Source: Polaribacter sp.
GTDB lineage: Bacteria; Bacteroidota; Bacteroidia; Flavobacteriales; Flavobacteriaceae
DNA length: 64,000 nt
NCBI GenBank assembly: GCA_020740485.1
Contig: DYMN01000001.1
Span: 62,001-126,000 of the forward strand
Direction of reading: 5' to 3'
Made by a program: the position numbers and the translations under genes. The notes under the pieces were generated by a model that had not been told where the DNA came from, did no database searches, and saw only the letters and a list, made by a program, of their open reading frames with translations. Below are positions 885 to 60,446 of the stretch, one piece after another; within the stretch, counting starts at the first letter, position 1, and each line of letters starts with the position of its first letter.

Positions 885-2645
<1,761 letters not shown>

Positions 2646-2647
2646 CA

Positions 2648-5600
2648 CTACTTTTGACTTAATCTTCGTTTCAAAGCTACGTATTTGGCTATAGAAATAA
2701 GCTCCCTGCTCACTTTGTCTAAAAGCTTACCATTGTATATATCCTGAATATTGACGTATTTCTCAATCAACAGAATTTGAATGACGGCATTGTTAAGAAT
2801 GGTATCTTCAGCATAAGAGTCAGCAAAATACAAAGTAGGCAATGCGGCAAACAGACGCTCAGCTATTTTCATACTATTGGGCAGGGTCATCAACTGCTCC
2901 ATTGCTTCGGTAGCAGTATTGAGTTCTATGTTGAGATTGACATTTACTAACAATGGACTAAACTCGTGTTGGGAATCAACCGGTGTGAAACCGTAAGTAC
3001 CGAATAAATCAACTTGTTCTGTACGTTGATCTATTTTTACAATTTGAGCTTTTCGCATTTGCTCTAATTGATAAAGATAAAAATTATACCGCAATATTTC
3101 ATTGTTGATTAAATTTTTATTTTCAAAAAAGGCAGGGTAACATTGCAAAATCTGATTGAAGACATATTGCTTGTTTTGATTGACATCCGGACGTTCAATA
3201 CGTACTTCTTGTATTAATTTTCGCATATCTTCAGCTGCTTTTCTCGGACCGGTAATTTCTTTACCTTTTTTACCCAAATCGGTAGAGAGAATACCTAATT
3301 GAATAGGATGCGCTCCTGATTTTGCCAATTTTCCTGATTTGAGTACTTCTATCAGGTGTTTACGTCCGTCAGTTTGTCCTATTTCAGTAATGAAAGGTTG
3401 ACCTGCCGGCGTGCTGGCTAATGTATCAAACAGCTGACCAAAGAGTAAGCGATCAATGTCGGTTTCGGTTACTGTAGCGTCAGCATCAGAAAGTACCGCA
3501 GTAAAGCGGTTTTTGATGATGTCAAATTTAACTTGGTTAATGGTGTATTTTTTACCATACAAGTTTACCACTTTGGAAGTAAAGATTTTGTTGACCATTG
3601 CTTCGATGTCTATTTTGTCCAACATTTTGTAAGATGAACACAAATAATAGGATTTTTTTGAAGCATCGAAGTCCCAATCTAACACAATATCTAAATAATT
3701 TCCGTGCAAATCAATCACTTCTACAATGTTTTTATCCGAAGTATAACGCATTAAGGTTCTTAAGAAATTCGGACCGTCTTCACTGGTAGCTTTTTCCTTG
3801 CGCTCGCCGTGGGCATCGCGGTATAAGATGAAATTTTCGGGATTGTCATACCTTAAAATGCCGGCTTCGGTTTTTGCATAATTATAGGCAGTGAGCATAA
3901 TGTCAATTTTAAAAGGCATACTAATATCACAGAAACCGCTGATGGTACTGCGGCTGTTCAAGTCATCTACATTACTATCTGCCGCTTGTTGAAAGAGCGA
4001 ATTATAAGCGTGGATGTATTCCGGATCAAAATCGGTAACCCTTGAAAAATCGCCAATTTCGCTACCTATGCCGTAGAGGTTGCCCTTGCTGTCCGGAAAG
4101 ACGTGAAACATATCTCCAGCTATCAATTTGATAGAACGCACGCCTGTGAGATTGTTTTTCAACCATTTTAACATCATAGCCGCCAACATTTCGGATTTAC
4201 CCACACCACTGTCTCCACTGATTTGCACTACAAAGAGACTTCCGTCTTCTTCTTCTACTGCAAACAAGGAACCGTGTACCGGAATACCGCCTATTTCTTT
4301 TACTTTTTCATTGATAATGGTTAAACGCGGTTTCTTTACATTTCCAAAATAGTCAGTTTCTTTGCGCAGTGGCGTTATCACAGTTTTGATATTGCCGTTA
4401 GGACCCGGAATGTTGAAAGTGCCTATTTGTGGAAATGACATTAATTTTTCAGGAACTCCCAAGAACATCAATACTTCGGGAACAAAATTTTGTACTTCGC
4501 TGTGGCTAACCCCTTGTGGTGCTAACAATCTGAAATCATCAGTCAAATATTTTAAATAGGATTTGTGAACTACATACATTTCATTGAATAATCCTTGGCG
4601 GAATATCTTAGTTCTGTACTCATCCGGATTCAATTTGGCGGCAAAGTCTTTCAATCTTTCTAAAAAGAAATCGGCTTCGGGACGTGTGTCTAATTTTTTT
4701 ATAAAATCATAAGGTGAGCCGTTTGATATTTCGTCATCGGGTTTGAATTCTGCGGTTCTGTCCACTCTGTGAATAGGATATTCTCTTTTTTTAGCATCGG
4801 TAGCGATGCGTGTGTGCATTTGGACAGAAGTTTCAGCGGTAATTACTCCTGTTTTTGAAGCAATTTCATTGATCCATTTCAGTTTTCCCTTTTGCCACTT
4901 CTGTAGTGGATTTGGGGTGTAATCATCAAGTTTATAAACCGCTATTCCGTGTTGAATTATTTCATTGTAGCTCGAAGGTTGGCTTCTGAAACGTGCATAA
5001 ACAGAATGAATTAACGCGTGGTTAAACTTAGTAAAATACTCCGTTTGTTTTGATCTGTTGTGTAAACTGATGACGAACAAACACATTTTGCGGGTGTTTT
5101 CAAACAAATCTGATTCGTAAATTTTGACCTCAGCTTGAGCAAATGTTTCTTTTACAATTTCTTGAAAATCCCTTTGAGCGGACTGCCACAATATTTGTTG
5201 TGAGAAAAGTTGAACTTCCGTACTGCTGAAATTTTCGTGAGCCAACATCTCATTCCAGTGCTGCATTTTATCATTTATATTTTGGATAAATGAGGTTTGT
5301 TTCATCACAAAATAAGCTTCTAATAAAAGCGTGCTGTCTATTGTTGAATCGGTGAAATGGGTTTGTATTAACTGCAAAATCACGTTGCTCACTTTTATTT
5401 GCCAATCAGATTGTGGATTCAATTGACGGGTTATGAGGTCTGATATTTCTTTGGCAAAAAGTGACATATTAAATTCATCTATTTCGGCACCGGTCACCTC
5501 GGGGAATCTATAGGCTATTTCTTGCATCAACTCCTTGTAAGTAGGATATAAATTTTGTTGAGCAAAAGGCAAATTGAAATGCAAGAGCATCTCTTCAAAG

Positions 5601-8600
5601 TGTTTTTTGAGAATACTGTTGATTCCTTCCATTTTTGCAACATCGGCTGTTTTGTTGTCTGTGGAATGTACAGCCAATATTTTGGTTTTTTCATCAGAAA
5701 ACAACAGACGTTCTATTTCTAATAAAATTTCTTTCATCGTCATCAGGTCTTCCGGCTTGTCTAACACGTCTTGGAGCGGTTGAAAATTGAGCTTATTTTC
5801 TATGTATTTTAATAGTGTAGCTTTTCCAAATTTGTATTGTATTCGGTGGAGCGTCCATCCCTTGATACGCGGAATATGTGGTACAATTTGAGGTAACAAA
5901 TTATCGTAAATGCTACTAAAGACTTTACTTTTAATAAATTCGAGAAGTGTGAGTTTGTTGCCTACACTATCGTCAAACTCTATAACTGCATTGATAGAAT
6001 CGGGTATTGCATTGATGCTCACACCAACACTTGCGTCTTGAATGTTGTAAAAAGTCTTGGTATTACTGATTTTTAAATAGCTGATGCCTTTTTTGACGTG
6101 TGGTTGCAAAGCGTCGTAATCTACAAAAACACGCATCATAAAGTCTTTTTCAGATGGGCTGTAAAACAAATTTTGTAAAATCTGATCGGTTGTCAAGCTT
6201 TTGTTCTCCAGCTTGTTTTTTTCAGTGTAGAACAAGTTCCAATAATGCAACAATATACGCAAGGCAGTGGAGAGTTCTTCTTGAAAAATTTGATAACTCA
6301 TTTCAGTTCCTTCTATGTAGTTTCCAACCGAAAATCGCAGAAAACCGGACTCGTATGGAATAATAGAAATACCTCTTTCTTCTGCCAATTTCATCGCAAA
6401 TTTTTCTAAATCTTGATAAGAGAAAAAGTCAATTACTTTGATGTTGAGCAAGTAGGAACCGTCGGAATCTACTAAATGTAATTTTTTTTCATCGAGTGCA
6501 TTTAATTCGGCTTGAACTATTTTTTTTGCCATCGCTAATCGCTTGTTCGATTCGTTTCTGAAAATGCGATTAATGCGGAATGAATTGAGTTTTCTGATTA
6601 ATTCTTGAAGGTAATACACAAAAAACGGCGTGTCATTGTAACGGAAATCATCGGGAATCTGCAAAATGTCTAATTTGTCGAGTGATACTAACTCTTCTAA
6701 CAAAAACAAATGCAGTGGGCTTCCGTCAAAATAGTTTGACCTTACACTTTCTTTTTGAATATTTGCTGCGTCAGCGTGGGCAACGATGAATTTTTCAATC
6801 AATTTGACAATATTCGAACGCGAAGCATTTTTGGGTAATTGATGTTCCATCACATCTTTGACTTTCTTTGCCATTTGGGCCATCTCGAGCAGATTGACCA
6901 GCATATACAACGAAAATGTATTGCCTTTATCAACCGGATTGACGGTTTTGGCAAATTGAATGACGTCTTTTTTTGCAGGCGTGCTTACCAAGGCACCCAA
7001 TCTATTGCCCGTAGAGCCTAAATTTTTGGTAGTAGAGATAGACGCAACTATACTGATTTTAGGGTAATTACTCAGGTTATTGAGAACATAACGCGAAATG
7101 GTTCGCCATTTGGGTTCTTCCGGATCATCTATTTTTACAGCGTCATTGTAGGCTTCGTCTAATAATAGCGTTATTTTAGTTTTACTTAAAAATTTTAAGA
7201 ACTCTATCAGCTCCGGATTGTTAAAGTCAGTATATCCCGAGGGATTATTTGGGTCATTAATAATGATGCTCAAGTTATCGCAAAATTTATCCCAAATACT
7301 GCCGGACTCGTCAAATATTTGGAACGTTTTTTTGATTCGCAACAATTTCTGATGCAATCGGTCGTAATCAATATTGCCATCGTCTTTCAATTCCACATCA
7401 ATATCAAAAGGATTAATGTCAAATTTGTTTTCAGGAATCAAATCTCTGTATTCCCACGATTGTTGCTGATTCCATATCACATAAGGGCGCATCACTCTCT
7501 CATCGGCAATTAAATCTCTGATAATCATTTGAGCGTCATCTGAAATGCTGGTTTTTGTTGTAGTAGCCAAATTAGCCAAAAACTCAGAGAGGTATTTTTT
7601 TTCTTTGTCTTTTAGTGACTTGTATTTGTGATAAATACCCAATTCTATCAACATATTTCGATAGCGCCCTTTGTTATCGGCTTCGTTCTCGTGGATAATC
7701 ATATAATCACGATAACGTTCTAAAAATAGATTGATTCCGAAATTTTTGTGAAAGTGATTTTGCAACGTGCGTTCGTAACTATCGGGAATAACGTCAATGA
7801 TAACCCGGCAACGCTCTTCTACCTCTTTGGAAATGTTCACTAATTTTTTTTGTAGAAGATAATTGCCATACGTTCTGATTTGATTTCGTCCACCGCCTTC
7901 TATGATGGTTGCAGTTTGCAACGCGGGATTACCGGAATAGAAATAGTCAGAAAGACGTTGTTCAAACTCTGTTATCAGCGACTCATTGTAGCGGGTTCTG
8001 CTTTTATCGTCATTGATGACTAAAACACTCTTGATGATGGCATTCAGCTTAGAAAGCGTATATTTGTCTTTGATGATCTGTCGAGCAAATTGATCAAATT
8101 TGAATAGTACAATATCCTTGTCAAGGTTGTCAATTTCACCCAATTGGTCTTTTTTGAATTCATTCAACTCCTTTTCATAAGATTTGATTTTTTGGTTGAT
8201 TTTTTCGGAAAAAGTTTTTAAATAATCAGGGTGAATTTTATCTAAAATCAAGCGTAAATTCATCTGTGAGTTAGCCCAAGCCCCTAATTTTTTAGTGTGT
8301 ACTCTATTGAGCGTATTGATAACTAAATTGTTAAAAGAAAAAACTAATGAAGTATTTGTTTTGTGCGCATTGGCAGAATCATCTACCAAAATAATTCTCG
8401 TGAGATACTGAAACCAATGTGCAGCTTGAAAGAGGGGACGGTCAGCTTGTTTTATTTTGACTAAAAAAACACGACTTACATCACCTTCAATCATCTGATA
8501 AAGTGCATCTTCACTCTCAAAATTGACTACTTTGACCGTATGTTCATAAAATACCTCACCGGCGATGAGTTTGACCACGGTTTCAGTAGTTCCCGATACT

Positions 8601-9256
8601 AAAGTTTTTATAAAACCGTTGAGTCCTGCAAAATCAAGTGAAGTATTCATTCGGTTGAGAAAATCAGTTTGTTCTGCCTTGGTGGTGTAATGCGAATTTT
8701 GAGTAATAAGTTGGTCCAAAACTTCGATCAAATAGTTCCATTGAGCCATTTCAATAGGGTCGTTAATACCCAAAACATCTTTATATTTGTGCAGTTCGCT
8801 TGCATTATCTCCGAGAATGATGCTGTACACAAAATCCAATTGGTTTTTGGTCACAGGTGGATTTCCGATAGAAAAATCGTGAATATTGAGAATTTGTGAG
8901 GCTCTTTTTTTAGATTTATTACTAATTACATCATTGTCTATCAGGTATTTAATCCTATTTGTAAACTTCTGTTTTTTAGCGCTATAATCAAAGGCTTTGG
9001 AAAGTTGATGCGGATATAATAAAAGCGCCACATCCGTGTATCCCGGAATTTGGTCTTTCAATTCTTGCACTAACTTATCTGTTCGATATTGCAAGTGAAT
9101 CAAGTCATCAGTAGCTAAGTTACTTAATTCTTTCAACAAATGTAGCATTTCCACGACTTGTTCCGGCATAAAACGAGAAGCTTCTGTGCCTAAAGAATCG
9201 TAAAGATTGATAAAATTTAGAACTTCTTCACTCATTTTTAATTTTGTAGTACTCAT
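2648..9256 (-). CDS. Giant 2202-residue protein: PLP aminotransferase domain plus PEPCK/HPr-kinase-like P-loop domain
   Basis: I do not know a characterised protein with this layout. Two regions are readable. Residues of roughly 560-960 carry the signature set of fold-type I aminotransferases: PNNPSG (Asn671), LLLDEAY (Asp700, expected to contact the pyridine nitrogen), STTKNLG (Lys744, candidate Schiff-base lysine), GNRLG (Arg752) and, later, FLRFSVG (candidate carboxylate-binding Arg). Around residue 1687 lies GDSGVGKSE, the Walker A form typical of HPr kinase/phosphorylase and close to that of PEP carboxykinase. It is preceded by a hydrophobic strand and followed ~25 residues later by KLIAGDM, in the place of the kinase-2 acidic motif. 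The remaining ~1400 residues are mostly charged helical sequence with no signal peptide or membrane segment, so it is probably cytoplasmic. The ATG at 9256 is used; M8 is an alternative. It stands alone with its own terminator. Substrate and role are unknown. Confidence 0.8.
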   Translation of the reverse strand: MSTTKLKMSEEVLNFINLYDSLGTEASRFMPEQVVEMLHLLKELSNLATDDLIHLQYRTDKLVQELKDQIPGYTDVALLLYPHQLSKAFDYSAKKQKFTNRIKYLIDNDVISNKSKKRASQILNIHDFSIGNPPVTKNQLDFVYSIILGDNASELHKYKDVLGINDPIEMAQWNYLIEVLDQLITQNSHYTTKAEQTDFLNRMNTSLDFAGLNGFIKTLVSGTTETVVKLIAGEVFYEHTVKVVNFESEDALYQMIEGDVSRVFLVKIKQADRPLFQAAHWFQYLTRIILVDDSANAHKTNTSLVFSFNNLVINTLNRVHTKKLGAWANSQMNLRLILDKIHPDYLKTFSEKINQKIKSYEKELNEFKKDQLGEIDNLDKDIVLFKFDQFARQIIKDKYTLSKLNAIIKSVLVINDDKSRTRYNESLITEFEQRLSDYFYSGNPALQTATIIEGGGRNQIRTYGNYLLQKKLVNISKEVEERCRVIIDVIPDSYERTLQNHFHKNFGINLFLERYRDYMIIHENEADNKGRYRNMLIELGIYHKYKSLKDKEKKYLSEFLANLATTTKTSISDDAQMIIRDLIADERVMRPYVIWNQQQSWEYRDLIPENKFDINPFDIDVELKDDGNIDYDRLHQKLLRIKKTFQIFDESGSIWDKFCDNLSIIINDPNNPSGYTDFNNPELIEFLKFLSKTKITLLLDEAYNDAVKIDDPEEPKWRTISRYVLNNLSNYPKISIVASISTTKNLGSTGNRLGALVSTPAKKDVIQFAKTVNPVDKGNTFSLYMLVNLLEMAQMAKKVKDVMEHQLPKNASRSNIVKLIEKFIVAHADAANIQKESVRSNYFDGSPLHLFLLEELVSLDKLDILQIPDDFRYNDTPFFVYYLQELIRKLNSFRINRIFRNESNKRLAMAKKIVQAELNALDEKKLHLVDSDGSYLLNIKVIDFFSYQDLEKFAMKLAEERGISIIPYESGFLRFSVGNYIEGTEMSYQIFQEELSTALRILLHYWNLFYTEKNKLENKSLTTDQILQNLFYSPSEKDFMMRVFVDYDALQPHVKKGISYLKISNTKTFYNIQDASVGVSINAIPDSINAVIEFDDSVGNKLTLLEFIKSKVFSSIYDNLLPQIVPHIPRIKGWTLHRIQYKFGKATLLKYIENKLNFQPLQDVLDKPEDLMTMKEILLEIERLLFSDEKTKILAVHSTDNKTADVAKMEGINSILKKHFEEMLLHFNLPFAQQNLYPTYKELMQEIAYRFPEVTGAEIDEFNMSLFAKEISDLITRQLNPQSDWQIKVSNVILQLIQTHFTDSTIDSTLLLEAYFVMKQTSFIQNINDKMQHWNEMLAHENFSSTEVQLFSQQILWQSAQRDFQEIVKETFAQAEVKIYESDLFENTRKMCLFVISLHNRSKQTEYFTKFNHALIHSVYARFRSQPSSYNEIIQHGIAVYKLDDYTPNPLQKWQKGKLKWINEIASKTGVITAETSVQMHTRIATDAKKREYPIHRVDRTAEFKPDDEISNGSPYDFIKKLDTRPEADFFLERLKDFAAKLNPDEYRTKIFRQGLFNEMYVVHKSYLKYLTDDFRLLAPQGVSHSEVQNFVPEVLMFLGVPEKLMSFPQIGTFNIPGPNGNIKTVITPLRKETDYFGNVKKPRLTIINEKVKEIGGIPVHGSLFAVEEEDGSLFVVQISGDSGVGKSEMLAAMMLKWLKNNLTGVRSIKLIAGDMFHVFPDSKGNLYGIGSEIGDFSRVTDFDPEYIHAYNSLFQQAADSNVDDLNSRSTISGFCDISMPFKIDIMLTAYNYAKTEAGILRYDNPENFILYRDAHGERKEKATSEDGPNFLRTLMRYTSDKNIVEVIDLHGNYLDIVLDWDFDASKKSYYLCSSYKMLDKIDIEAMVNKIFTSKVVNLYGKKYTINQVKFDIIKNRFTAVLSDADATVTETDIDRLLFGQLFDTLASTPAGQPFITEIGQTDGRKHLIEVLKSGKLAKSGAHPIQLGILSTDLGKKGKEITGPRKAAEDMRKLIQEVRIERPDVNQNKQYVFNQILQCYPAFFENKNLINNEILRYNFYLYQLEQMRKAQIVKIDQRTEQVDLFGTYGFTPVDSQHEFSPLLVNVNLNIELNTATEAMEQLMTLPNSMKIAERLFAALPTLYFADSYAEDTILNNAVIQILLIEKYVNIQDIYNGKLLDKVSRELISIAKYVALKRRLSQK

Positions 9257-55827: not shown

Positions 55828-57849
55828 ATGTCAAAATACCCAAAAATATTCTTTTTGATATTGTTTTTTGGTGTGAGTGGTTTTGCACAAAGTAAACCTT
55901 CTGTTGGTCAGCTTTTTACAAAATACAGTCAAAATCCTAAAGACAGAGATAATTTGTCTGAATTAGCGCTATACTATATTCAAATTAATTTAGATTCCGC
56001 CAATTTTTACGCCGAAAAGTTGCTTCATTTGTCCAAAAAAAATGAATTTATTTATTTATCAAGAGCATATACCGTCCTCGGTCATGTACATTATTTAAGC
56101 AATAGATTGGATTCTGCACAATACTATCATCAAAAAGCGGTTGATGTTGCAAAAGCTTCTAAAAATGAGTATGCCTTTGGGGTCAATTTGTCAAATCTCG
56201 CACAGGTTTATATGACAAAAGGAAACATAAATAAATGCATTGAAACCTATCTTGAAAGCGAAAAAATATTATTAAAATATGCCAATGAGGACAAGGCTGA
56301 TTATTATTTTTCAACAATGTACTCAGGTTTAGGCGAAGCTTATAAATATCTAGCTTTATATGATAAATCACTTCACTATTTGTATAAATCATTTGAATAT
56401 TCCAAAGCGTTAGGAGATGAAACCAATATGGCTATAACAACAAGTGCAATAGCCGGAGTGTATCTCGATATGAAAGACTATGATAAAAGTGAAATTAATT
56501 ATAAAAAAACGCTTATTCATTTGAGCAAAGTTGACTATAAATTAGCCAAAGCGCTTACTTATTATAATTTAGCAGAAGTTTACTTTGAAAAAAATGAAAT
56601 TTCAAATACGCTTAAGTATTTAGATTCCTCTCGCCGATACTACATACTTTCTAAAAATAGTTACCAATTGGGAAATATCTATAATTTGACGGGAAAGGTA
56701 AATTTAAAAGAAAATAATTTAGATAAAGCGTATCAAAACTTCAGTATTGGATTAAAATACAACCAAGAATCCAATAATTTAACTGATACGGGTAAATCGT
56801 ATGAAAGTTTGGGCGATTATTATAATTACAAAAACTCAGAAGAAGCTTTGAATTATTATAAAAAAGCGTTGGAAATTTTTGATAAAGGAAATCTATTAAA
56901 AGATAAAAAAGCCATTTTAGAAAAAATTTTAAATCTTTCTTCTGTAATTAATAACCCAGAACTTTCACACACCTATTTTTTAGCCTATCAGAAAGCTAAT
57001 GCTTCTTATTTAAACGAAGAAAAACAAAAAGCAATTGTGAGTCAGGAGGTCCTTTATGAAACAGAATTAAAAGAAGCCAAAATAAAAACACAAGAATTAG
57101 AATTAATTAAAGAGAAAGACAAGCAAAAAAATATGATTTATGGAACTGGTTTTTTGGTAACTATTGGATTGTTAAGTTTTTACGTATTTTACAATCAACA
57201 ACGAAAAAATCAATTTATAATTAAAAATACTATTCTGAACCTGCAAAACAACTTAAATCAGATGGAGTTACAAAATTTGAATCAGCAACTCAATCCGCAC
57301 GAATTTAAAAATTTATTAATAGGCATTGCCCCTGAAATTCAGCAAAAAGCACCTGAAGCCTATAAAAATATGATTCGGTTACTCAACATAACCAAAGAAG
57401 GAATAAAATCAAACGCGCTTACTGATAGTGTTGAGAATCAATTAGAACATCTCAAGTCTTTTTTGATATTAGAACAAAATATTGCATCTCATCCTTTTGA
57501 ATGGAATATTGATAATGATTTAAAGGTTGAAAATTTTCAAATTCCCAGATTAATATTAAAAAATGCGGTTGATAATGCTATCAAACACGGTATAAAAAAC
57601 ATTGAAAAGGGGAAAATCAATATAAAATTATACAATGATTCAAATTCAGTATATATTTCAATCAAAGACAACGGTGTTGGAAAAAACAAACAGCAAACTA
57701 AAAGTACAGGTATTGGAATAGTAACGTATCAAAAATTATTTGAGACTTTAAATCAGAAAAATTCAAATTTTGCTATTTATGAAGTGCGTTTCGCTGAAAA
57801 TGGAACTAATGTAGCGATAAACATACCCTTAAACTACATCTATATTTAA
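55828..57849 (+). CDS. TPR-containing LytS-like sensor histidine kinase
   Basis: 673 residues: signal peptide, then an extracytoplasmic array of about eight TPR-like helical repeats (residues ~30-380, for example ALNYYKKALEIFDKG). One membrane helix follows (YGTGFLVTIGLLSFYVFY, near 437-454), a coiled coil, and a LytS/YehU-type kinase domain. The phosphoacceptor His491 sits in LNQQLNPHEFKN, where relatives normally read LNPHFLFN. The ATPase part has LKNAVDNAIKHG, IKDNGVGKN and STGIGIVTYQKLF. The LytTR regulator gene follows after 5 bp. The signal is unknown; the TPR region suggests protein or peptide sensing. Confidence 0.9.
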   Translation: MSKYPKIFFLILFFGVSGFAQSKPSVGQLFTKYSQNPKDRDNLSELALYYIQINLDSANFYAEKLLHLSKKNEFIYLSRAYTVLGHVHYLSNRLDSAQYYHQKAVDVAKASKNEYAFGVNLSNLAQVYMTKGNINKCIETYLESEKILLKYANEDKADYYFSTMYSGLGEAYKYLALYDKSLHYLYKSFEYSKALGDETNMAITTSAIAGVYLDMKDYDKSEINYKKTLIHLSKVDYKLAKALTYYNLAEVYFEKNEISNTLKYLDSSRRYYILSKNSYQLGNIYNLTGKVNLKENNLDKAYQNFSIGLKYNQESNNLTDTGKSYESLGDYYNYKNSEEALNYYKKALEIFDKGNLLKDKKAILEKILNLSSVINNPELSHTYFLAYQKANASYLNEEKQKAIVSQEVLYETELKEAKIKTQELELIKEKDKQKNMIYGTGFLVTIGLLSFYVFYNQQRKNQFIIKNTILNLQNNLNQMELQNLNQQLNPHEFKNLLIGIAPEIQQKAPEAYKNMIRLLNITKEGIKSNALTDSVENQLEHLKSFLILEQNIASHPFEWNIDNDLKVENFQIPRLILKNAVDNAIKHGIKNIEKGKINIKLYNDSNSVYISIKDNGVGKNKQQTKSTGIGIVTYQKLFETLNQKNSNFAIYEVRFAENGTNVAINIPLNYIYI

Positions 57850-57854
57850 GTATT

Positions 57855-58655
57855 ATGAAGTATAGTTATATAATCATTGAAGATAACCCAAAAGCAGTTG
57901 AAAGTTTAAAACTATTTTTAAATAAATATGAAAATTTTATTGAAGTTGGTATAAGTGATAGTGTCAAAAAAAGTGTAAATCTAATTTTAGAGCAAAAACC
58001 GGATTTGGTTTTTTTAGATGTTGAAATTATTGATGGGAAAGGATTCGACGTCATTAATGAATTAAATAAACAATTCGTTAAATTACCTGTTTTTATCATG
58101 ATTACCAGTCATGATCATTACGCAAAAGAAGCCTTGAATAATGAAGTATTCTATTTTATTTCGAAACCTTTTGATCCGGATGAATTAGAAAGGGCTTTGC
58201 ATAAATTCGAAAAATTCTACATCAATAATTTAAAACAAATTTCTGTAAAAACATCAGAAGGACTTTTTAAGGTCAATCTTAATGATTTGTTGTTAATAGC
58301 TTCAGATGCTAATTACAGTTATATATATAAAACAGATAGTTCTTTTATTTATACATCAAAGACAATTAAAGATTATTTTTCAATGCTTCCTGAAAAATTT
58401 ATAAGAATTCACAAGAGTTACATTGTAAATAAGGATTTTATTGATTTAGTGAGTATGAAAAACAAATGCATCGTGCTTAAGACGAACGCGAATATCAACC
58501 CGATTAAGAATTTTGTTTACGAAAAAGAAAGCGGAGAGATAACTGAACTTATAAGAAATAACAAAGTTCTAAAGCAATCTTTTGAAGATCATCAAAAGTT
58601 GATATTGCCAATTGGAAGAACTTTTTTAGATGAAATTAAGAAACAACTATTCTAA
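57855..58655 (+). CDS. LytTR-family response regulator
   Basis: 266 residues. Receiver domain (1-~120) with acidic pocket IIEDN, phosphoacceptor Asp in LVFLDVEI, Thr in MITSHDHYAKEA and Lys in FISKPF. LytTR DNA-binding domain from ~135 (LLLIASDANYSYIY, MLPEKFIRIHKSYIVNKDFID). Between CIVLKTN (Cys205) and LPIGRTFLDE (~251) lies an extra stretch of about 35-40 residues rich in Lys/Glu/Asn. Most LytTR domains join these two elements with a short turn. Partner of the upstream kinase. Confidence 0.93.
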   Translation: MKYSYIIIEDNPKAVESLKLFLNKYENFIEVGISDSVKKSVNLILEQKPDLVFLDVEIIDGKGFDVINELNKQFVKLPVFIMITSHDHYAKEALNNEVFYFISKPFDPDELERALHKFEKFYINNLKQISVKTSEGLFKVNLNDLLLIASDANYSYIYKTDSSFIYTSKTIKDYFSMLPEKFIRIHKSYIVNKDFIDLVSMKNKCIVLKTNANINPIKNFVYEKESGEITELIRNNKVLKQSFEDHQKLILPIGRTFLDEIKKQLF

Positions 58656-58946: not shown

Positions 58947-59675
58947 TTATTCAATAATATCAGATTTCACAATAAATTCAGTTCTGTCGTTATCTACACA
59001 TCGATCTTTATTTTGTTTCATAATATCATTATTACATTTATCAATAGGTTTTTCAAAACCTAAACCAGCTGCATTAGTTCTGTTTGAATCAATTCCTTTG
59101 GAAGTAATATAATTAGCACAAGCATCAGCTCTTTTTTGACTTAAGTTTTTCAAAAAACTCAAATCACCCATATTATTGGTATGAAAAACAATATCAATTT
59201 TTAAATTGTTGTATTTGTTTAAAATATCAACAACCATATCTAATTGCAATGCAGTTTCTTTTGTGATTGAAGCATCATCCGGCTCAAATTCTAAAGGTTC
59301 CATCACAATCATCTTAACTCCATTTTCAATTTTGAATTCATTCAAAGGAATTAATTCCAATTTTAAGATGTGATTAGTGTTCGTATTCGATGTAAACACT
59401 AATTTGATGCTCTTAGAATAATTTTCATAAATCGCACTAACCTGGTACCGCGAGGCACAATTCAATTGAAAGGAAAAAGAACCCTCCGCATCAGAATATG
59501 TTTCTTCTACCACATTTCCGTTTAGTTTTAACTGAATTAGAGCATTTGTTATTTCCTTACCCGAATTTTTATTTAGAACTTTTCCGGTTACATTATTGAT
59601 GCAATTTTCTTTTGGATTCTGTGCAATCACGACGGTCGTGAATAGTAGCAACATAAAATTAATAATTGTTTTCAT
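58947..59675 (-). CDS. OmpA-family protein, copy 2
   Basis: 242 residues: signal peptide (INFMLLLFTTVVIAQ), a carboxypeptidase-regulatory-like beta domain (GKVLNKNSGKEITNALIQL, DAEGSFSFQLNCASRYQV, residues ~28-105) and an OmpA C-terminal peptidoglycan-binding-like domain (LEFEPDDASITKETALQLDMVV, NLSQKRADACANYI, AAGLGFEKPI). The OmpA core motif is less canonical than in copy 1: FHTNNMG replaces the usual HTDS type, and the Asp expected to contact diaminopimelate is uncertain. It lies 42 bp downstream of copy 1. Confidence 0.88.
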   Translation of the reverse strand: MKTIINFMLLLFTTVVIAQNPKENCINNVTGKVLNKNSGKEITNALIQLKLNGNVVEETYSDAEGSFSFQLNCASRYQVSAIYENYSKSIKLVFTSNTNTNHILKLELIPLNEFKIENGVKMIVMEPLEFEPDDASITKETALQLDMVVDILNKYNNLKIDIVFHTNNMGDLSFLKNLSQKRADACANYITSKGIDSNRTNAAGLGFEKPIDKCNNDIMKQNKDRCVDNDRTEFIVKSDIIE

Positions 59676-59717
59676 TGGGGGATGTATTAGGGTTATTAAA
59701 TATTATTCTACTTTAAA

Positions 59718-60446
59718 CTAATCTATTACCATAAATTCTATTCTTTTATTTGCTTTATGTTCAGCTTCTGTGCATTTGACGTCTTTAGCGCAATGATTTA
59801 CTAATTGTGTATCACCATAGCCATTTGTTTCGAATCTGCCTCCTTCAATTCCCATCTCAATCAGTTGGTTTACAATTACATCAGCTCTTTGCTTTGTTAT
59901 TTCTAAAGCATAAGCAGGTTCACCTTTGCTGTCTGTATGAACATCAACACTTATTCTAATATCAGGATATTTGCGCATAATATTTACTACTTTTTCAAGC
60001 TGCTTCTGACTGGCTTCACTCATTAAATCCACATCGGTTTCAAAATCGATATTATCAATATCAATATACTTATTAGGGTTTTTTTTAACAAATTCAAGAA
60101 TAGGATATAGGAATAAATCTATAGTATTACTTTCCGATTTAGATGAAGTATAAACAATTTTTGAGCTTATTGTGAAATTTTCTATACGCGCATTAACATT
60201 GTACTTGGTGCCACAACTTAATGAAAATTCGTAGGATCCATCACTCCCGGTTTCCAAAGAATTTACCAATTGTCCGTTGGTAAAAAGTTGTACATTTGCT
60301 TTTGGTATGATTTCACCGTTTTTATAATTTTTAATATAACCGGTTAAAATTTGTTTGCAATTTGGATCAGGAATACCTTCCACTTCACTCTGTGAGTGAA
60401 GTTCAAGCGAAAAGATCAAAAAAAGTATAGAAATAAATTTATACAT
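59718..60446 (-). CDS. OmpA-family protein, copy 1
   Basis: 242 residues with the same plan as its downstream neighbour: signal peptide (FISILFLIFSLELHSQ), carboxypeptidase-regulatory-like domain (TGYIKNYKNGEIIPKANVQL, GSDGSYEFSLSCGTKYNV), and OmpA domain (FETDVDLMSEASQKQLEKVV, DVHTDSKGEPAYALEITKQRADVIVNQLIEMGI, TNGYGDTQLV). The canonical VHTDS and KQRAD motifs predict peptidoglycan binding. The two genes have equal length and clear similarity, so they arose by tandem duplication. Confidence 0.9.
   Translation of the reverse strand: MYKFISILFLIFSLELHSQSEVEGIPDPNCKQILTGYIKNYKNGEIIPKANVQLFTNGQLVNSLETGSDGSYEFSLSCGTKYNVNARIENFTISSKIVYTSSKSESNTIDLFLYPILEFVKKNPNKYIDIDNIDFETDVDLMSEASQKQLEKVVNIMRKYPDIRISVDVHTDSKGEPAYALEITKQRADVIVNQLIEMGIEGGRFETNGYGDTQLVNHCAKDVKCTEAEHKANKRIEFMVID

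Follow-up and report, generated by a model that had tools for sequence, protein, structure and literature searches.

Introduction

In Lactobacillus bulgaricus, an aspartate transaminase and PckA, as two separate enzymes, have been proposed as a route from aspartate via oxaloacetate to phosphoenolpyruvate (PEP) (PMC3022021). In this work we analysed a 64,000-nucleotide stretch of Polaribacter sp. DNA (assembly GCA_020740485.1, contig DYMN01000001.1, positions 62,001 to 126,000; hereafter the window), in which one gene encodes P0001, a protein of 2202 amino acids (aa). Its sequence indicates a conserved, selected fusion of a class I/II site for pyridoxal phosphate (PLP) with a site of the PEP carboxykinase (PEPCK) superfamily, both predicted to lie on a single chain. 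Searches of open-access literature, judged by titles and the opening lines of abstracts, found no description of a PLP-PEPCK fusion, subscription literature being outside this scope; a first-pass annotation of the same DNA had likewise known of no described enzyme with this combination. Below, "giant" denotes a full-length member of the P0001 family, and L and G numbers denote loci and genomes, G000 being the window genome.

Parts of the giant resemble known systems. Class I/II aminotransferases (PF00155) share its catalytic core and residues at a score over the curated cut-off, whereas its PLP part lies inside a 2202-aa chain, has an apparent insert at residues 792-930 and leaves the first 118 profile positions unmatched. 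ATP-PEPCK (PF01293, EC 4.1.1.49) has YxGxxKK, a histidine and the P-loop in the same order and spacing; the giant, in contrast, gives no PF01293 match, reads GDM for GDD (by eye), has no located oxaloacetate arginine and is fused to a PLP part. HPr kinase/phosphorylase has the P-loop GDSGVGKSE and is the first sub-threshold PDB match of the core profile, but the giants scanned gave no Hpr_kinase_C match, share YxGxxKK with PEPCK, and are much larger and fused. A stand-alone family of ~570 aa (AYP99509.1 of Limosilactobacillus fermentum, annotated as PEP carboxykinase, and two unannotated proteins of the Bacteroidia genome G608) has YFGxxKK, (I/V)HG, GDSGxGKSE, DM and N-x-R in common with the giant. 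It differs in lacking a PLP domain, in size (~570 vs ~1160 aa), in reading DDM rather than GDM, and in an N-domain without detectable similarity. Adjoining aminotransferase and PEPCK genes at loci L026, L027 and L028 represent the same two enzyme kinds side by side, though as separate proteins, and their PEPCKs exceed the PF01293 cut-off.

Results

A single open reading frame under selection

The gene and the features that define its PLP part are as follows.

2648..9256, minus strand: whole gene, P0001, 2202 aa (ATG start, single open reading frame (ORF); full-length homologues exist)
6227..7918, minus strand: PLP fold-type I (aminotransferase class I/II) region, residues ~447-1010 (outer borders by eye; PF00155, hhalign, and Foldseek on a low-confidence model)
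6884..7405, minus strand: Aminotran_1_2 stretch, residues 618-791 (Pfam PF00155)
7025..7027, minus strand: K744, predicted Schiff-base lysine in STTKNLGSTGNRLG (invariant in 11/11)
6467..6883, minus strand: probable insert in the PLP small domain, residues 792-930 (flanked by the PF00155 stretch and by the C-terminal portion that matched significantly)
6323..6343, minus strand: FLRFSVG, residues 972-978, in which R974 is the expected alpha-carboxylate arginine (invariant in 11/11; hhalign shuffle test)

The length of 2202 residues given by the first-pass annotation was correct, and the strand, which it had left out, is minus. The motifs it had named were all recovered in place, namely N671, D700, K744, R752, FLRFSVG (here numbered 972-978), GDSGVGKSE (1681-1689) and KLIAGDM (with D1715), and the distance it put at about 940 residues is 943 from K744 to K1687. 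Each of 11 distinct members, the window protein included, is encoded by one uninterrupted ORF (2202-2244 aa), and a fusion created by assembly error was ruled out.

Across these 11 giants (two of which are 99% identical), 670 of the 2202 columns are invariant. Substitution ratios indicate that the giants are under strong purifying selection: the nonsynonymous to synonymous ratio (dN/dS) was 0.031 for L003/L004, 0.043 for L005/L007, 0.059 for L005/L008 and 0.055 for L007/L008, at synonymous distances (dS) of 0.12, 1.2, 1.9 and 1.9, respectively, that is, above 1 in three of the four pairs. A more distant pair gave 0.076 at a dS of 4.0.

The PLP site

Aminotran_1_2 (PF00155) was the sole Pfam family over its cut-off in P0001 (51.3 bits vs 19.7, E 1.3e-13), and it was also matched in 8/8 aligned giants (E up to 0.01). 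The PLP part is thus beyond chance. N671, D700, Y703, S741, K744, R752 and R974 are invariant in all 11 giants, so that the fold-type I motif set read in the first-pass annotation stands, and the sequence shows the catalytic residues of a class I/II PLP site. In NCBIfam, P0001 gave sub-cut-off matches only, six of the seven to PLP families. The C-terminal portion of the PLP part scored 37.6 against aminotransferases in hhalign, compared with a maximum of 20.9 among 100 column shuffles (0/100 as good). As the nine aminotransferases in this comparison had all been found by the giant profile itself, the test is not fully independent.

The PEPCK-like site

The second site lies in the C-terminal half, with the following features.

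3737..4489, minus strand: PEPCK-like catalytic core, residues 1590-1840, which includes the protein's most conserved stretch (profile comparisons, alignment)
4331..4351, minus strand: YFGNVKK, residues 1636-1642, counterpart of PEPCK YxGExKK (aligned to ATP-PEPCK)
4274..4276, minus strand: H1661, aligned to the histidine of PEPCK MHCSAN (ATP-PEPCK alignments; invariant in 11/11)
4190..4216, minus strand: P-loop GDSGVGKSE, residues 1681-1689, with K1687 (alignment, conservation, PDB profile search)
4112..4114, minus strand: D1715 of IAGDM, a candidate metal ligand (matched to PEPCK GDD by eye)
3950..3952, minus strand: R1769 of LNSR, aligned to the arginine of PEPCK NTR via the stand-alone family (hhalign, conservation)

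Y1636, K1641, K1642, H1661, K1687, S1688, D1715 and R1769 are invariant in 11/11 giants, as are the G, D, S, G, G, K, S and E sites of GDSGVGKSE. We take the equivalents in E. coli PEPCK to be Tyr207, Lys212/213, His232, Lys254, Thr255, Asp269 and Arg333. Among the key sites checked, only G1714 (A in L033) and K1820 (M in L033) vary; the residue preceding D1715 is accordingly G in all but one of the 11 giants, and D in the stand-alones.

No family exceeded its Pfam or NCBIfam cut-off on the P-loop part of P0001, where the sub-threshold matches were NACHT (E 0.18 and 0.078) and nSTAND3 (E 0.051). Neither PF01293 nor PF00821 matched P0001 or the eight aligned giants; one giant matched PF01293 below threshold (17.1 bits, E 0.0016). 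In profile-profile comparison, hhalign aligned the giants with ATP-PEPCK at E 1.1e-4, and the giant core scored 43.8, with a maximum of 22.5 in 100 column shuffles (0/100 as good). These alignments carry the tyrosine, the lysine pair, the histidine and the P-loop with its lysine in PEPCK order and spacing. The C-terminal STDLGKKGKEITGPRKAAEDM resemblance is marginal (18.7 vs a shuffle maximum of 18.5). In a PDB search with the core profile, where every match was sub-threshold, HPr kinase ranked at the top (E 0.14, 0.16) and was followed closely by Rab proteins and by ATP-PEPCK (0.35, 0.46).

The first-pass annotation had read the P-loop form as that of HPr kinase, with similarity to PEPCK. The HPr-kinase-like letters are indeed present, yet both the match to a PEPCK-annotated family and the alignment with ATP-PEPCK, which takes in YxGxxKK, the histidine and the P-loop, make the P-loop part look closer to PEPCK than to HPr kinase. 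A PEPCK-superfamily site with lysine pair, histidine, P-loop and arginine is therefore predicted in the chain, and the proposed two-domain anatomy holds, with PF00155 above its cut-off and the core scoring over all 100 shuffles against ATP-PEPCK.

Stand-alone relatives

The stand-alone family is homologous to the giant core (hhalign E 1.3e-20) and is itself related to ATP-PEPCK (E 8.9e-6), its core scoring 48.3 against a maximum of 31.4 in 100 column shuffles. One record in the plasmid collection matched P0001, a Limosilactobacillus fermentum protein annotated PEP carboxykinase, with 29% identity over residues 1629-1827. This protein, AYP99509.1, lies just below the PF01293 cut-off (23.9 bits vs 26.5). 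Its gene (L022:5083-6792) is carried by a 252-kb mobilizable plasmid, the sole plasmid record matching at E up to 0.001; as that record belongs to the stand-alone family and not to the giant, a plasmid origin of the giant was rejected.

In G608 the giant profile recovered two paralogous stand-alones of 576 and 577 aa, at L045:6450-8177 (G608:C44) and L046:6329-8059 (G608:C122), both without annotation. One lies directly upstream of a full, co-oriented PEP carboxylase gene (1105 bits); the second and a class I fructose-bisphosphate (FBP) aldolase gene are divergently oriented. PF01293 and PF00821 had no match in G608 (99% complete), of which the two stand-alones may be the only PEPCKs. Among 375 genomes, the stand-alone profile found the family in G608 only, its other matches being two giants and one marginal place.

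Distribution and the PEPCKs of the carriers

The phyletic survey proposed in the first-pass annotation revealed a patchy family with 13 distinct carriers after removal of duplicates. Of the genomes sampled, full-length giants occurred in 2/296 of the phylum (window genome included), in 1/395 of the class (the window genome itself) and in 4/245 of the class to which G643 belongs. Eleven more genomes of the window's class gave matches, to aminotransferases in ten and to the stand-alones in G608. Among 149 relatives six matched: the window genome, two of three genus mates and three members of genus g386, in which the copy of G991 is split across two contigs and that of G1001 is partial. The named genome collection held six giant loci, all in metagenome-assembled genomes, labelled Flavobacteriaceae, Flavobacteriia, Draconibacterium, Paludibacter, Bacteroidetes and Ignavibacteriae. 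In the giant tree, L036 (from G977, of another Flavobacteriales family) grouped with Ignavibacteriota-side sequences (support 91), apart from the window clade. The tree was built by a quick method with no mixture model, and L036 is a long branch; its placement gives a hint of gene transfer.

ATP-PEPCK (PF01293) is present in 8/13 carriers, and the giant is thus not simply a replacement for a missing PEPCK. It was not found in G000, G642, G644, G879 and G1001, of which G000 (84.6% complete) and G1001 (68%) are incomplete. GTP-PEPCK (PF00821) was found in 0/12 carriers tested, G1001 being left out.

At three of nine carrier PEPCK loci, representing two lineages (two of the three are same-genus), the ATP-PEPCK gene is directly beside an aminotransferase gene. 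The adjoining aminotransferases of L026 and L028, the only ones scanned, had aspartate aminotransferase families as their best NCBIfam matches, below cut-off. At L028:43-4214 (G062), an aminotransferase gene stands on each side of a PEPCK paralogue, all on one strand. The PEPCKs of L028 and L026/L027 read (H/W)TARAA(A/D)DK, those of the other carriers TGRSP(K/N)DK.

Other parts of the gene and its surroundings

The remaining features of the gene are listed here.

7937..9256, minus strand: N-terminal conserved region, residues 1-440 (no recognised relatives in Pfam/NCBIfam scans)
4562..6136, minus strand: residues 1041-1565, including the most variable stretch, ~1251-1400 (no recognised relatives; N-domain tests not significant)
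2608..2644, minus strand: intrinsic-terminator-like hairpin 3' of the gene (16-pair stem with 4 G-C pairs, and T-run)

About 60% of the chain (outside ~447-1010 and 1566-1840) has no recognised relatives in the family and profile searches, much as the first-pass annotation had estimated (over 60%). A profile of residues 1-440 found, among 296 genomes, just two giants (the window's included) and one marginal place (E 0.0013, in a frame with a stop), and occurrence of this domain elsewhere was rejected accordingly; an internal duplication (1-440 vs 1041-1610) was not significant. DUF4145 matched P0001 below threshold in Pfam (E 0.13). A phage origin was dismissed, with no phage match and no PHROG at E up to 0.1, as was a viral one, 48 stretches of viral contigs fitting a pattern and none being a relative of the giant. 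A defence origin was rejected too, the sole PADLOC match being one of 12 bits.

One terminator-like hairpin was found, compared with a mean of 0.2 in shuffles, which supports the earlier reading of a stand-alone gene with its own terminator. Beyond it lies pyrG, with its likely ATG ~150 bp away (from reading the ORFs); the upstream neighbour is divergent and, by eye, reads as a type IIA topoisomerase subunit. One giant copy was found in the genome (2.18 Mb, 84.6% complete). Of 23 window ORFs, the giant gene has the greatest G+C content at third codon positions (GC3), 0.374 (0.297 ± 0.032 for the other 22); the next gene has 0.369 and the total G+C of the giant gene is ordinary, and high GC3 is not decisive as a sign of recent foreign origin. 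A gene-neighbourhood check, also proposed earlier, revealed no conserved operon partner by eye: apart from two close pairs, L003/L004 and L005/L007, the giants had no neighbours in common, and such a partner was rejected.

Elsewhere in the window, two adjoining same-strand ORFs of 242 aa (58947-60446) look by eye like paralogues that encode secreted proteins and resemble OmpA in their C-terminal part. They adjoin a histidine-kinase/LytTR-type regulator pair (55828-58655, by eye).

Discussion

Our preferred reading, to which we give a probability of roughly 0.38, is that the giant is a single-chain bifunctional enzyme connecting aspartate, oxaloacetate and PEP (Asp ⇄ oxaloacetate ⇄ PEP). It would be a cytosolic enzyme of central carbon and nitrogen metabolism. 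Its PLP part would transaminate an alpha-amino acid, most likely aspartate to oxaloacetate, and its PEPCK-like part would decarboxylate and phosphorylate oxaloacetate to PEP with a nucleotide or pyrophosphate (PPi) as the donor. Alternatively, the course may be reversed, from PEP and CO2 to oxaloacetate and on to aspartate. The large extra regions may tether the two sites, for channelling or regulation. In favour of this reading we count the invariant PLP and PEPCK-type residues, dN/dS, the core alignments, the G608 context, the adjacency of PEPCK and aminotransferase genes, the two-enzyme route proposed for Lactobacillus bulgaricus, and the Foldseek rows. A wider proposal, that stand-alones and giants form a third, undescribed PEPCK-type lineage in which the giant channels oxaloacetate from transaminase to PEPCK site, possibly with pyrophosphate as donor, is in our judgement doubtful.

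Several observations weigh against the bifunctional enzyme. The substrates of both sites are predictions from sequence. The N-terminal portion of the PLP part was no better than chance against aminotransferases (94/100 shuffles as good). The arginine of the oxaloacetate site was not located, the ATP-PEPCK alignment beginning beyond it, and the comparison of the giant with the oxaloacetate-binding N-domain of the stand-alones was matched by 4/100 shuffles; at their N-terminus the figure was 3/100, not significant. One aspartate of the PEPCK DD pair is lost in the giants and the other is placed by eye, and hhalign sets the stand-alone DDM against the later WDDD of ATP-PEPCK, not GDD. HPr kinase stands above PEPCK in the sub-threshold PDB list, and most carriers (the eight noted above) have an ATP-PEPCK as well.

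The structural evidence, which the first-pass annotation had proposed as a check, also has two sides and lends weak support for both folds. AlphaFold was run on each half with seven-sequence alignments. With the N half, each of the best 50 of 223 Foldseek matches was a PLP fold-I enzyme (lowest E 0.083); with the C half, each of the best 50 of 418 was a PEPCK (lowest E 0.0075). Against this, the models are poor (mean pLDDT, a per-residue confidence score, 52.3 and 51.0 for the N and C halves), neither half had a Foldseek match at E 0.001, and VIA-align placed other folds first for the C half, mainly small barrels and helical stretches. Its best 50 rows included one PEPCK chain (rank 50, Z 3.9, root-mean-square deviation 7.4, 101 aligned), and absence from these rows does not speak against a family.

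Three other explanations have to be considered. The P-loop of HPr-kinase form, together with the first, sub-threshold, place of HPr kinase in the PDB search (E 0.14), could also belong to a small-molecule kinase joined to a PLP lyase or decarboxylase, comparable to threonine kinase with CobD: the PEPCK-fold part would phosphorylate a hydroxy-amino acid, and the PLP part would decarboxylate it or carry out an elimination. GntC and CobD were in fact the top two NCBIfam matches, below cut-off, but these matches span only the generic class I/II core. Moreover, the YxGxxKK motif and the nearest stand-alone family are PEPCK-like, that family adjoins PEP carboxylase and FBP aldolase in G608, and no biosynthetic cluster was seen by eye around the giants inspected, so we consider this explanation unlikely. 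The same P-loop underlies the regulatory form of the proposal in the first-pass annotation, in which sensing of an amino or keto acid by the PLP domain would control a protein kinase/phosphorylase of HPr-kinase type. Two stand-alone relatives do have sub-threshold HPr-kinase matches (Pfam E 0.053 and 0.13, NCBIfam 0.033 and 0.1), and the large conserved regions without an assigned role and the stand-alone gene would suit a regulator. It is nevertheless quite unlikely: Hpr_kinase_C (PF07475) matched neither P0001 (E up to 10) nor the eight aligned giants (E up to 0.01), no DNA-binding or receiver domain was among the Pfam matches of P0001, and all PLP and PEPCK-type residues are kept, which a pure sensor would not need. 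We infer that a pair of enzymes handling amino acid, oxo acid and phosphoenol is a simpler account of the parts than a regulator that phosphorylates proteins.

The last explanation is a version of the bifunctional enzyme, in which the C-terminal half (~1160 aa) is related to PPi-dependent PEPCK, a large and sequence-divergent enzyme. PPi-PEPCKs exceed 1000 aa. The size of the C-terminal half would fit, as would the missing PF01293 and PF00821 matches in P0001; a review describes PPi-PEPCK as having no InterPro family and occurring in limited but diverse bacteria (PMC8100219). However, the PDB profile searches named no PPi-PEPCK, possibly for want of sensitivity, and the size match may be coincidence because a half-size stand-alone relative exists. 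We regard this version as improbable.

If the bifunctional reading is true, the giant would be a natural example of nitrogen and carbon flow coupled covalently, through a fusion where PEP, oxaloacetate and aspartate meet that is, to our knowledge, unusually large. The PEPCK-like lineage defined by it would be one that the Pfam PEPCK families overlook or only just match, and would bear on PEP supply in genomes without PF01293 or PF00821.

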